13,491 bases of DNA from Methylocystaceae bacterium (GTDB taxonomy: Bacteria > Pseudomonadota > Alphaproteobacteria > Rhizobiales > Beijerinckiaceae), in assembly GCA_003152255.1 (NCBI GenBank), contig PLZT01000287.1:1-13491 (forward strand), written 5' to 3'. Every line of letters starts with the position of its first letter. The stretch's first letter is position 1. The notes beneath the pieces were generated by a model. The model did not search any database. It saw only the letters and a list, made by a program, of their open reading frames with translations, and was not told the origin of the DNA. Made by a program: the position numbers and the translations under genes. This document shows, piece after piece, positions 2,359 through 10,190 of this stretch.

Positions 2359-3128
2359 CCCCGCGCGACGCGCCAAAAATCATACTCGAAAACGTGACGC
2401 TTGGCTATGACCGGCGGCCCGCCGTGCATCATGTTTCCGGCGAGATCGCGCCCGGCGACCTGCTCGCCGTCTGCGGCCCCAATGGCGGCGGAAAATCCAC
2501 TTTGCTCAAAGGCTTGGCCGGTCTCATCGCGCCGATGGGGGGCAGGATTTCACGTGGCGGCGCGAAGGCCGGGGACTTCGCCCATCTGCCGCAGGCGGCC
2601 GAGATCGACCGGACATTTCCCATTTGCGTTCAAGACTTTATCGCGCTCGGCGGGCTGCGCCGAAAAGGGCTTTTTTCGGCGCTGGGCGCGGACGAGGACG
2701 CGCGCGTCGCTAAAGCCATTGACGCCGTTGGGCTTTCTGGGTTCGAGGCGCGCGGCCTGGAAACGCTTTCCGGTGGGCAGATGCAGCGGGCGCTGTTCGC
2801 GCGGCTCGTCGTCGAGGACTGCGCCGTCATCTTGCTGGATGAGCCGTTCGGGGCCATCGACGCCGCTACGACATTGGATTTATTGGCTTTAATCGCCATG
2901 TGGCGCGCGGAAGGCCGTACGGTGATCGCCGCGTTGCACGAGTTCGACATCGTGCGCCAGGCCTTTCCGAAAACGCTGCTGCTGGCGCGCGAAGCCATAT
3001 TTTGGGGCGACACGGCGCAAGCGCTCTCGCCCGAAAACCTCAAGAAAGCCAAGGACATGGCCGCGGCTTACGACGCCAGGGCGCGGCTCTGCGAGCGAGA
3101 CGAAGCGGAGCATGCCGATGCTGTATGA
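2355..3128 (+). CDS. znuC: Zinc ABC transporter ATP-binding protein ZnuC
   Basis: ZnuC hydrolyses ATP on the cytoplasmic face to drive zinc import through ZnuB. From TTG 2355 the protein has 257 residues, normal for the family. It shows Walker A GPNGGGKST (41-49), a Q-loop in LPQAAEIDRTFP (78-89), the signature LSGGQ (138-142), Walker B VILLDEP (158-164) and the switch His in ALHEFD (His195). LPQ..xIDRxFP is typical of metal-transporting ABC ATPases. The frame is open to 2205, but the upstream part is the shadow of the small membrane gene. TTG 2355 overlaps that gene's stop and puts the family's usual start a few residues before the first beta strand. GTG 2328 is an alternative. The gene end overlaps the start of znuB. 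Confidence 0.92.
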   Translation: MTPRDAPKIILENVTLGYDRRPAVHHVSGEIAPGDLLAVCGPNGGGKSTLLKGLAGLIAPMGGRISRGGAKAGDFAHLPQAAEIDRTFPICVQDFIALGGLRRKGLFSALGADEDARVAKAIDAVGLSGFEARGLETLSGGQMQRALFARLVVEDCAVILLDEPFGAIDAATTLDLLALIAMWRAEGRTVIAALHEFDIVRQAFPKTLLLAREAIFWGDTAQALSPENLKKAKDMAAAYDARARLCERDEAEHADAV

Positions 3129-3987
3129 CCTCCTGGCGGCGCCCTTCGTCGATTACCAATTCATGCGCCGCGCGCTGGTCGGCGCGCTGGCGCTGGCGCT
3201 GGCGGGCAGTCCGCTCGGGGTGTTTCTGGTGCTGCGGCGCATGTCGTTGGCCGGCGACGCCCTGTCGCATGCGATCCTGCCGGGCGCCGCGATGGGCTAT
3301 CTCGTCGCGGGCCTGTCGCTGCCGGCCATGACGCTGGGCGGACTGGCGGCGGGGCTGGTGGTGGCGCTCGCCTCGGGCGCCGCAGCGCGCTTTTCGGCGC
3401 TGCGCGAGGACGCCTCGCTCGCCGCCTTTTATCTTGTATCGCTGGCGCTTGGCGTCACCATCGTCTCGCTGAAAGGTTCGAATGTCGATCTGCTGCATGT
3501 GCTGTTCGGCTCGGCCCTGGCGCTCGACGACGCGACGCTGCTGCTGCTCGCCGGCGTCTCGACGCTGACGTTGTTTTGCCTCGCTATTTTCCATCGCGCG
3601 CTGGTCGCCGACACGCTCGACCCCGTGTTTTTGCGCCGCGCCAGTCGGTTCGGCGAGTTCGTCCCGTTTTTGTTTTTGGGGCTGGTGGTGCTCAATCTCG
3701 TCGCCGGCTTTCACGCGCTGGGCACGCTGATGGCGGTGGGGCTGATCATGCTGCCCGCCGCCGCCGCGAAGCTGTGGACGCGCGATCTTTCCGCCGCGCT
3801 GCCGCTCGCCGGCTGCCTCGGCGCGCTGGCGAGCTATGTCGGTTTGGCGCTGTCGTTTTATTCCGGCGCGCCAGCGGGGCCGGCGATCATTCTGGCCGCG
3901 GGCGTCGTGTATTTCGTGTCGCTGTGCTTTGGTCGCGCCGGCGGGCTGATCCGCAACTTGCGCCCGCGCCGGCATTTCGAGGGGTAG
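3118..3987 (+). CDS. znuB: Zinc ABC transporter permease ZnuB
   Basis: This is the membrane subunit of the zinc importer (ABC-3 permease family), 289 residues with about eight or nine hydrophobic segments. The family hallmark is LRRMSLAGDALSHAILPG near residues 40-57, the loop region that contacts the ATPase. ATG 3112 is two codons upstream in frame, but GGAG at 3107-3110 is only one base from it and seven from ATG 3118, and homologues typically begin MLYD, so I prefer 3118. The start overlaps the end of znuC. The stop TAG 3985-3987 lies two bases before znuA's ATG, and GAGGGG inside the last znuB codons serves as znuA's ribosome site. Confidence 0.92.
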   Translation: MLYDLLAAPFVDYQFMRRALVGALALALAGSPLGVFLVLRRMSLAGDALSHAILPGAAMGYLVAGLSLPAMTLGGLAAGLVVALASGAAARFSALREDASLAAFYLVSLALGVTIVSLKGSNVDLLHVLFGSALALDDATLLLLAGVSTLTLFCLAIFHRALVADTLDPVFLRRASRFGEFVPFLFLGLVVLNLVAGFHALGTLMAVGLIMLPAAAAKLWTRDLSAALPLAGCLGALASYVGLALSFYSGAPAGPAIILAAGVVYFVSLCFGRAGGLIRNLRPRRHFEG

Positions 3988-3989
3988 CG

Positions 3990-5045
3990 ATGATTTGTAA
4001 AGCCGAATCTGGGGGCGCATCCCTTCTCCCACTTGTGGGAGAAGGCGCCATGCGGAGCATGACAGATGAGGGACGTTACGACCGGGTTGGAACTTCCCGC
4101 GGACCCTCATCCGACCCTTGCTACGCAAGGGCTGCGTTCTCCCACAAGTGGGAGAAGGGAGCGCCCTTATTGTTTTTATTGTTGAATTTGGCGGCGCTCG
4201 TGCTTTCCCTCTCCCCCGCGCTCGCCCAATCCCCTCCCCTGCCAGTCGTCGCGAGTTTCTCAATTCTCGGCGATTTCGTGCGCGAGGTCGGCGGGAACGC
4301 CGTCGATGTTTCCACCATCGTCGGTCCCAATGGCGACGCCCATGTCTATGAGCCGACGCCCGCCGACGGGCGCAAGCTCGCGCGCGCGCGGCTGGTTTTT
4401 GTCAACGGGCTGGGGTTCGAGGGCTGGATCGACCGGCTTATCGCCGCCTCTAAAACCAAAGCGAAAATCGTCACGGTCAGCGCCGGCGTCGCGCCGCGCC
4501 AGGGCGAGCAAGGGCTCGACCCGCATGCCTGGCAGGATGTCGCCAACGCCCGCCGTTACGTCGAGAACATCCGCGACGCGCTTGTCACCGCCGACCCCGA
4601 ACGCGCCGCGCTGTACCAAGCCAATGCGACCGCCTATCTCGCCAAGCTCGACGCGCTCGACCGCGAAATCACGACAGCGCTGGAGACCATCCCACCCGCG
4701 CGTCGAAGAATCATTTCGACCCACGACGCCTTCGCCTATTTTAGCGCCCGCTATGGGTTGGACTTTATCGCGCCGCAGGGCGTTTCCACCGAGGCGGAGG
4801 CGAGCGCCCGCGACATCGCCCGCATCATCGACGCGGTGAAGCGCGAAAAGGTCGCGGCGGTGTTTTTGGAGAACATCGCCGATCCGCGCCTCGCCCAAAG
4901 CATCGCCGCGCAAACCGGCGCGAAGATCGGCGGCACGCTCTATTCCGACGCGCTGTCCGATGCGAAAGGACCGGCGCCTAACTATATCGAGATGGTCCGG
5001 CATAATGTAAAAGAGCTGACAGAAGCGTTGGGCGTTAGACAGTAA
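3990..5045 (+). CDS. znuA: Periplasmic zinc-binding protein ZnuA with a repeat-derived N-terminal insert
   Basis: ZnuA captures zinc in the periplasm for ZnuBC (cluster A-I, TroA-type fold). From ATG 3990, with GAGGGG five bases upstream, the product has 351 residues. Predicted metal ligands are His118 (HVYEPTP), His179 (DPHAW), His245 (STHDAF) and Asp320 (LYSDALS). Three His favour zinc over manganese. The His-rich loop seen in E. coli ZnuA is absent; the segment between the first two ligands is short. The oddity is at the start: residues about 11-58 are encoded by a 140-bp palindromic repeat that stays in frame, and only then comes the signal peptide (60-79, cleavage near ALAQ). An alternative start, TTG 4170, has GAAGGGAG at 4155-4161 supplied by the repeat. 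It would yield a 291-residue protein beginning directly with the signal sequence, though without the usual positive charge. Confidence 0.88.
   Translation: MICKAESGGASLLPLVGEGAMRSMTDEGRYDRVGTSRGPSSDPCYARAAFSHKWEKGAPLLFLLLNLAALVLSLSPALAQSPPLPVVASFSILGDFVREVGGNAVDVSTIVGPNGDAHVYEPTPADGRKLARARLVFVNGLGFEGWIDRLIAASKTKAKIVTVSAGVAPRQGEQGLDPHAWQDVANARRYVENIRDALVTADPERAALYQANATAYLAKLDALDREITTALETIPPARRRIISTHDAFAYFSARYGLDFIAPQGVSTEAEASARDIARIIDAVKREKVAAVFLENIADPRLAQSIAAQTGAKIGGTLYSDALSDAKGPAPNYIEMVRHNVKELTEALGVRQ
4021..4160. repeat. 140-bp fold-back repeat, copy 1 (inside znuA)
   Basis: The unit opens with a hairpin (CCTTCTCCCACTTGTGGGAGAAGG type) and closes with a near-mirror hairpin built on TTCTCCCACAAGTGGGAGAA. 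Inside are ATGCGGAGCAT, a GATGAGGG/CCCTCATC long-range pair, and the hairpin CCCTTGctacgCAAGGG. Copy 2 at 5057-5197 shares all these landmarks. This architecture is that of the extragenic palindromic repeats common in Rhizobiales genomes. Here it has no stop codon in znuA's frame and so is potentially translated. Confidence 0.9.
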
Positions 5046-5056
5046 CGCGGCGGCCT

Positions 5057-5197
5057 CCCTTCTCCCACTTGTGGGATAAGGTGTCATGCGGAGCATGACG
5101 GATGAGGGTCGCCGGGAAGTTTCAACCAAGTCACGGCGCCCCTCATCCGACCCTTGCTACGCAAGGGCCACCTTCTCCCGTAAACGGGAGTAAGGAA
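5057..5197. repeat. 140-bp fold-back repeat, copy 2 (between znuA and the GTPase gene)
   Basis: Same orientation and landmarks as copy 1: the opening CCCTTCTCCCACTTGTGGGA, then ATGCGGAGCATGACgGATGAGGG, CCTCATCCGACCCTTGCTAC and a closing hairpin CTCCCGTAAACGGGAG. The middle third (5109-5139) and the closing hairpin have diverged, so this is not a recent duplicate. It fills almost the whole intergenic gap and could stabilise or attenuate the polycistronic mRNA upstream of the GTPase gene. Confidence 0.88.
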
Positions 5198-9002: not shown

Positions 9003-10190
9003 TTAGCCTAGAAGCTCCTTCTCGGCCGCAGCCAACTCCGAATGTTCGTCAGGGTTCGGAAACCAATGCCCGTAAACGTCCATCGTCATAGAGACACTAG
9101 CATGACCGAGTCTGACTTGCGCCGCCTTGGCCGATAAGCCCAAGCCGCCGTCCTTGCGTGAATTGATGAGCCACGAGGCGAAGAAGTGCCGGGCGGCGTG
9201 AAGCCCAGGATAGCGGGCCTTGTTGCCAGACGAGTCAGTCACCCCCGCCTCTATCTGGGCGCGCTGCCAACCGTAAACCGCCAAATCAGTGTGTCCTATT
9301 GGCCGCCCGTTGGCTGTCGGAAAGGCAAGGTCGAGGTCGCCCTTCTGACAGACAAGCTTCCACTCTCGAAGCGCATTCGCGACGATCGGGGGCATAGGCA
9401 CGGCCCTCTCCCCAGCCGCCGACTTAGGGGGGCCGAATTGCATGTATTGGTCGACGCGCTGGCGCACGTGAATGACGCCCTTCTTTAGGTCGATGTCTCG
9501 CCAGCGAAGGCCGCGAAGCTCGGACGAGCGCAGGCCACTGAAGATGAGCGTCAAAAGGATTGGTCTCCAGCGGTCATGCAGCCCGTCCACGATTGCCTTA
9601 ACCTCGGCGCGCGTCGGCACGTCCACGCCGACCTTGAGCTTTCCCTTCTGGCGCTTATGGGCTTGCGCCTCGGTTCCCCTTTTTCGACCCGCGCGCATCT
9701 GCCGAGCAGCGTTGACGGCGACAAGTCCTCGCTCGCGCGCATCCTCGATCAGAGAAGCAAGGCTGGTGAGGATCTTTCGAATCATCGGAGCGGACCGAGG
9801 TGGGGCTCCATCGTCGCCCCGGCGCAGCCTGTCTTCTAGGTCGCGAACGAGGGGTGCCGAAACTTGCGAGAGCTTCACGGCGCCGATGAAAGGGACAATG
9901 TGGAAGCGCACATGGCGCGCATAGGCGTCAACCGTGCTGCGCTCCAATCCCCTGCCCCGGCACGACTCAAGCCAGAGGGCGGCCGCCTCGCTGACGGTTA
10001 GGCTTACCGAGTCTGGAGTGTGGACGCCCGCCCTGACCTCGACCTTAGCTTGAGCCTGAAACGCGTCGGCTTCCTTTTTCCGATCGAACGTCTTGATATG
10101 CCTGGCACCGGCTTGGTCGACATAATCGACGATCCAGGCCTGTTTCTCGAGTCCCTTGGCGGTTTTCCAAGTGCGCTTGCGGATCGACAT
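9003..10190 (-). CDS. Tyrosine recombinase / phage-type integrase
   Basis: This 395-residue integrase catalyses site-specific integration and excision of a mobile element. It has an N-terminal arm-binding part (about 5-60), a SAM-like core-binding domain (about 64-155) and a catalytic domain (about 190-380). The catalytic residues are Arg221 (SGLRSSELRGL), Lys256 (PPKSAAGER), His331 and Arg334 (LHAARH), His363 (LGHASVSMT) and Tyr373 (DVYGHW), so it appears intact. AGAGGAAAG precedes ATG 10190. Its 3' end lies 61 bases from the tRNA-Cys fragment, which is its likely attachment site. Confidence 0.95.
   Translation of the reverse strand: MSIRKRTWKTAKGLEKQAWIVDYVDQAGARHIKTFDRKKEADAFQAQAKVEVRAGVHTPDSVSLTVSEAAALWLESCRGRGLERSTVDAYARHVRFHIVPFIGAVKLSQVSAPLVRDLEDRLRRGDDGAPPRSAPMIRKILTSLASLIEDARERGLVAVNAARQMRAGRKRGTEAQAHKRQKGKLKVGVDVPTRAEVKAIVDGLHDRWRPILLTLIFSGLRSSELRGLRWRDIDLKKGVIHVRQRVDQYMQFGPPKSAAGERAVPMPPIVANALREWKLVCQKGDLDLAFPTANGRPIGHTDLAVYGWQRAQIEAGVTDSSGNKARYPGLHAARHFFASWLINSRKDGGLGLSAKAAQVRLGHASVSMTMDVYGHWFPNPDEHSELAAAEKELLG

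Follow-up and report, generated by a model that had tools for sequence, protein, structure and literature searches.

In a 13,491-nucleotide stretch of DNA (hereafter the window) from a methanotrophic bog bacterium, the znuA gene carries a palindromic repeat in frame, lying after ATG 3990 and ahead of the signal-peptide core. Such repeats are generally regarded as non-coding spacers, but this one has seemingly come to form the front of a conserved transporter protein, probably under zinc regulation, within the part that would be cut off. Judging from the sequence, it is fairly probable that translation starts at ATG 3990 and reads through the element, and that the resulting 59-residue pre-extension, mostly repeat-coded, is removed with the leader. 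A mobile palindromic element would have inserted downstream of the znuA start codon, ahead of the signal-peptide core, and the native MLTRR n-region would have been lost. Ribosomes would still initiate beside the znuB stop and translate the element in the single frame open there, and its right side (ARAAFSHKWEKG) would supply the lysines and arginines ahead of the core. A cut between ALA and Q would leave mature ZnuA unchanged, which would explain why this insertion was tolerated and offers a simple reason why such insertions can survive in a cleaved leader.

The znuA locus and its open frame

The window contains a zinc-type ABC transporter operon comprising an ATPase gene (ABC_tran), znuB, znuA and a CobW-family GTPase gene (Table 1). 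The znuA product matches PF01297 with 306.5 bits against a gathering cut-off of 29, identifying it as a ZnuA substrate-binding protein. Its best NCBIfam match is AztC (NF040870), whose score of 311.3 bits lies below the cut-off of 350 and does not place the protein in AztC. A preliminary description of this DNA had noted an in-frame repeat, free of stops, that follows ATG 3990 and precedes the signal peptide. This is confirmed by a 141-bp element within an uninterrupted frame preceded by GAGGGG, and the extension of roughly 59 residues proposed there agrees with the element occupying codons 8-59.

Table 1. Features of the znuA region, numbered along the window.
Feature	Position	Strand	Basis or remark
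znuB, ABC-3 permease	3112..3987	+	Stop TAG 3985-3987, 2 nt before ATG 3990
Ribosome-binding site GAGGGG	3979..3984	+	Within znuB 3' end; 5 nt upstream of ATG 3990; same letters before the bog_906 start
znuA open frame including extension	3990..5045	+	351 codons, no stop; PF01297 at residues 86-346
Palindromic element with outer GGGCGC/GCGCCC ends	4011..4166	+	Codons 8-59 of the znuA frame
Left palindromic arm	4020..4046	+	Reads LLPLVGEG
In-frame internal ATG within element	4050..4052	+	Missing in some extended relatives
Right palindromic arm	4134..4160	+	Reads FSHKWEKG; likely chief source of the charged n-region
Signal-peptide hydrophobic core and ALA cleavage motif, LLFLLLNLAALVLSLSPALA	4167..4226	+	Kept, with variation, in the extended relatives
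TTG just downstream of element	4170..4172	+	Sequence; alternative start named by the preliminary description
Second element copy	5056..5196	+	In the znuA-cobW gap; none of the six frames is free of stops
CobW-family GTPase gene	from TTG 5220		Downstream of znuA

A perfect palindrome, TGTTATACTATAACA, lies upstream of the ATPase gene at 2153-2167 (one match; none of 200 shuffles had a match). It resembles an alphaproteobacterial Zur box, suggesting that the operon is zinc-regulated. Elsewhere in the window, the reverse strand encodes a tyrosine recombinase/integrase-like protein at 9003-10190, with weak NCBIfam matches to XerC that fall below cut-off, and ARAGORN predicts no tRNA in the window.

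The palindromic element and its dispersal

The core of the element spans 141 bp (profile match 4020-4160), or about 156 bp counting the outer GGGCGC/GCGCCC ends. Its two arms are 96% complementary, each is nearly its own reverse complement, and the stem is lengthened by the pairing of GGGCGC (4013-4018) with GCGCCC (4161-4166). For the RNA of 3960-4240, the predicted folding energy is -141.3 kcal/mol (z -6.2), a value reached by none of 200 shuffles. The same GGGCGC...GCGCCC ends recur in two copies (L150 and L154), and imperfectly in a third (L151), in bog_906, the nearest genome compared.

A profile built from the window and bog_906 copies spans 142 positions. By DNA comparison, the family is matched in 18 of 41 genomes, among them 16 of the 25 belonging to the genus. 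It occurs both complete and in pieces, as full units, half units and solo arms; single arms or half units make up many of the matches, and among 17 bog_906 stretches taken, six copies proved full-length. Like a MITE, the element has terminal inverted repeats and many dispersed copies. By eye, no target-site duplication lies directly at the element ends, and a 12/14 match between 4005-4018 and 4184-4197, which does not abut the element at both ends, could be chance. The gap between znuA and cobW, which holds a full element in the window, contains about one arm in bog_906 (L166, about 1126-1205), a difference that may reflect either a gain or a collapse between near-identical arms.

Rfam returned no family at gathering score for the window. 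The element is undescribed among the top matches listed from the open-licence literature searched, a scope that leaves out most subscription papers, and matches to its letters look like chance among those listed. The passages seen of PMC5082802, PMC12306157 and PMC3794950 (the Methylocystis SC2 genome) hold no description of it, and PMC5896051 gave no match to the terms searched.

The repeat-free state in bog_906 and the genus

The ZnuA of bog_906 is 96% identical to that of the window, and the element is absent between its znuB and znuA, the latter beginning MLTRRALLAFGLCFASPVLAQ just past znuB. At the DNA level, identity between the two genomes is 94% across znuB plus the end of the ATPase gene, and 95% in mature znuA. 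Their alignment holds as far as CGAT after the znuB stop and resumes at CTCCCCCG in the signal peptide; the interval between these blocks measures 44 bases in bog_906 (beginning MLTRRALLAFGLCFA) versus 219 in the window. Counted from the znuB stop, the bog_906 ATG comes 2 nt later than ATG 3990, so that the codons differ though their places are equivalent. The preliminary description had suggested comparing znuA starts with those of repeat-free relatives and held that a missing start at the corresponding position would speak against it; bog_906 has a start there.

The pattern extends across the genus. Thirty loci were read on the coding strand, one of which ends at a contig edge, leaving 29 with a readable start. 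Twenty-four of these starts directly follow a znuB-like end, and 27 have RR within a few residues (25 by a scripted rule, plus L003 and L022, which have an extra ATG ahead of MLTRR); L005 starts with MRRLKR and L030 with MTSLR. Since none of the 29 has the extension and 27 have RR near the start, the repeat-free start is most simply regarded as ancestral. Going beyond the preliminary description, the comparison reveals that the native RR n-region, which is MLTRR in bog_906, is gone from the window. The core is kept and resembles the relatives' LLAFxLxFASPxLAQ.

Choice of start codon

The preliminary description had left two readings side by side, a pre-extension translated from ATG 3990 and a new start created by the repeat. 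In the second, TTG 4170 (or 4179, 4182 or 4188) would use GAAGGGAG of the right arm (4154-4161), which ends 8 nt ahead of TTG 4170, to produce the short leader MFLLLNLAALVLSLSPALAQ, the openness of the frame upstream being chance. Three relatives (P0009, P0015 and P0086) are called from starts near the same edge, and one third of the frames in other copies are open by chance. Even so, this appears rather unlikely. Among 121 rows scored for n-region charge (100 repeat-free homologues, 16 element-lineage rows kept apart and five skipped because the mature motif was unmatched), 98 of the 100 repeat-free homologues have at least one K/R in the n-region, whereas the TTG 4170 leader has none. Its ribosome site is also paired inside the hairpin, with an opening cost of 18.3-33.0 kcal/mol over three flank lengths, and an upstream Met-led frame recurs in nine other clusters.

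Opening ATG 3990 costs 11.2-16.8 kcal/mol, and the bog_906 ATG 19.2-24.9 kcal/mol. Translation from 3990 thus ranks first on the strength of its n-region K/R and its cheaper opening than TTG 4170; the nine extended clusters and the start of repeat-free relatives beside znuB likewise favour the pre-extension over the new TTG start. All 11 extended or partly extended relatives have three to four K/R within the 15 residues ahead of the core. Several observations count against translation from ATG 3990. The charged stretch of window-type rows has three K/R and two D/E, for a net charge of +1, whereas 92 of the 100 repeat-free homologues reach at least +2. TTG 4182 opens as cheaply as ATG 3990 (10.2-16.1 kcal/mol), with no ribosome site seen before it, and the excess of open frames described below is modest. 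Furthermore, P0009, P0011, P0015, P0016 and P0086, in which the element is inferred, are called from starts at or beyond the element edge, indicating that the extension is not universal.

Initiation within the element, at ATG 4050 or 4059 with GGGAGAAGG of the left arm, is very unlikely. ATG 4050 is in frame and has GGGAGAAGG upstream, and P0003 and P0008 are called from internal Mets, but the Met at 4050 is missing in P0006, P0012, P0014 and P0019, and its opening would cost 23.2-42.1 kcal/mol.

Relatives with a predicted extension

A protein search with ZnuA scored 7999 candidates and gave 7980 matches, of which the best 120 were listed; a second search with P0012 as query added no new cluster among the matches listed. 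The close rows number 21, consisting of the window and 20 clusters, in which the relatives are gene predictions and the element is inferred from the peptide. Ten carry the full extension from an upstream Met (the window, P0001, P0002, P0004, P0005, P0006, P0007, P0012, P0014 and P0019), and two are open from an internal Met (P0003 and P0008). Three are called near the element edge (P0009, P0015 and P0086), and two further in (P0011 and P0016), where the call does not reveal the state of the element. The remaining four are repeat-free, starting with MLTRR or MLNRR (P0010, P0013, P0017 and P0018). The same kind of extension is accordingly predicted in relatives, and nine other clusters look as though they read through the same element. 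Both ENA and JGI contributed extended clusters, some of them with many members (21 sequences in P0002, 52 in P0008), which makes it unlikely that an assembly fault of the window alone lies behind the extension. In P0013, the first part is nearly identical to P0010 and the second part is divergent, consistent with a recombinant or an assembly chimera.

The element is read in at least five frame or orientation arrangements, the window included. The window-type right flank is shared by P0001-P0008, and the left flank by P0001, P0002 and P0004-P0007. In the first arrangement (window, P0001 and P0002), the extension reads LLPLVGEG..SMTDEGR..PSSDPCYARA.xSHKWEKGAP. In the second (P0004, P0005 and P0007), flanks of MFFxAxSGGA on the left and ATFSHKWEKGAPLL on the right enclose the centre PLRxKGRMRVxGxFQPSRGAPHPTSLRE, which would be the frame expected from an oppositely oriented element or from another copy. 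P0006 represents a third arrangement; P0012 and P0019 form a fourth, with arms in other frames (FSHLWE left, LPRVGEGRRGP right), and P0014 a fifth, with a frame shift within the centre. The seven window-type full rows have 85-86 residues before VVAS, and P0012, P0014 and P0019 have 78-81. The switches between arrangements are probably recent, since mature-part identity is 96% both between P0002 and P0004 and between P0001 and P0007. One route from class A to class A' would be a simple inversion, as A' resembles copy 1 read as its reverse complement. The right half of A', however, holds a different stem-loop, and its centre matches copy 2 on the forward strand as well, so replacement by another copy is equally possible.

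A further possibility is that the insertion damaged znuA, leaving little or no working ZnuA while another transporter serves and the gene decays or lies under a hairpin attenuator. The hairpin in the 5' region of znuA is very stable, and P0086 looks frame-shifted in part of its mature protein. Against this, the mature ZnuA of the window is 95% identical to that of its repeat-free sister P0010 and has no stops, and the hydrophobic core and cleavage-like motif are retained, with variation, across the extended relatives. Damage to the gene is very unlikely.

Openness of the frame

One of the three forward frames is open in the window copy. Across 12 further full copies, each at least 125 bp long and selected on DNA criteria, the open share is 24 of 72 frames (0.333), so the openness of the window frame alone is unsurprising. 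Against this rate, 10 open rows of 17 give P 0.027, 10 of 15 (without the two unknowns) P 0.0085, and nine of 16 without the window P 0.05, the related rows not being independent. Counted by arrangement, five open of eight gives P 0.088 and five of ten P 0.21, where the numbers of closed arrangements (three or five) are guesses. Requiring a start in frame as well, by dividing the rate by an assumed factor of 3, yields 3e-6 for 10/17, 7e-4 for 5/8 and 0.003 for 5/10. The excess of open frames is modest, suggestive of translation, not decisive. A first null of 14/60 open frames, from 10 copies of which some were partial, was superseded by 24/72. A larger null of 100/234 (10/17, P 0.14) was dropped, as it included short copies, near-duplicates and loci fetched for their open frames.

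History of the insertion

In a tree of the mature part, the window pairs with the repeat-free P0010 (98/93). Monophyly is rejected both for the 14 element-bearing rows (p-AU 0.004) and for the 10 window-type rows (p-AU 0.002), in a test that was not blind, an earlier tree having already been seen; P0013 and P0086 were left out beforehand, and P0011 and P0016 were not counted. Since the element-bearing rows do not form one group even though the window-type borders are so similar, the data are better explained by lineages exchanging the znuB/znuA junction, or by repeated gain and loss, than by a single inheritance. The recurrence of the arrangement in other lineages had no place in the preliminary description. 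More speculatively, and with considerable doubt, the ZnuA n-region could be a protected landing and shuffling site, in which the palindrome keeps being replaced, inverted or swapped between species, with selection mainly retaining open, positive-ending versions. The repeat would then have been domesticated as a leader, and its hairpin may tune the znuB/znuA expression ratio.

Relation to known systems

In-frame palindromes and MITE-derived leaders are already known, and the in-frame element in znuA is real and probably translated. The closest likeness is to the Rickettsia palindromic elements (RPE), which lie in frame in conserved protein genes and for one of which the product, Gmk, is reported to be translated and active (Ogata et al. 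2000, 2002; PMC2229807). As described in the part of PMC2229807 seen, RPEs are stem-loops of 105-146 bp with inverted ends and an open frame, within conserved genes. The znuA element likewise forms a long inverted-repeat stem-loop in the 100-150 bp class (141-156 bp, arms 96%, fold z -6.2), and lies in frame in a conserved gene while being absent from orthologues (bog_906; 29 of 29 genus loci lack the extension). Likened by description, it differs in occurring in another organism, at the start of a gene, in a disposable leader and in several arrangements at one site. It may work like an RPE; its host is Methylocystis-like, and no membership of a Rickettsia RPE family is claimed.

At the Yersinia locus YPO1552, the frame of a MITE, YPAL/RU-2, forms part of a predicted signal peptide (Delihas 2007; PMC2229807). 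In the account seen, that repeat helps to make a new putative exported protein, whereas the znuA element would put a new front on a conserved binding protein already in place, contributing its n-region rather than the hydrophobic core. REP-type palindromes (PMC12306157, PMC5082802) and the mosaic RIME repeats of Rhizobium, the latter likened by description only, are likewise dispersed palindromes near gene ends. In the passages seen, REPs are defined as mostly extragenic, unlike the znuA element, and the consensus letters of Br-REP1 and Br-REP2 (PMC5082802) are unlike it by eye. No comparable Methylocystis case is described among the top matches listed from the open-licence literature searched, to which most subscription papers do not belong.

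The repeat-free, forward, opposite and frame-changed forms of this leader provide a natural series of variants for testing leader length and oddity in bacteria. They also caution that start-site annotation near such repeats should not be trusted unchecked.

Other genes next to the element

The eight stretches examined among the matches listed do not support a general role of the element in providing genes with starts. L177 and L178 have an open frame running through an element immediately upstream, followed by an ordinary Met-led start (MREGSLEAP and MYDIKWIREN, the latter presumably seryl-tRNA synthetase). The znuA gene is unlike these, as no ATG lies between its element and the core. L175, L180 and L182 face a longer frame on the opposite strand. 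In the bog_906 hrcA gene (TIGR00331; L164, 851-2020, reverse strand), the frame is open upstream through a solo arm, MDQGASFSHKWEKG..., and ordinary Met starts follow, possibly a milder case of the same thing.
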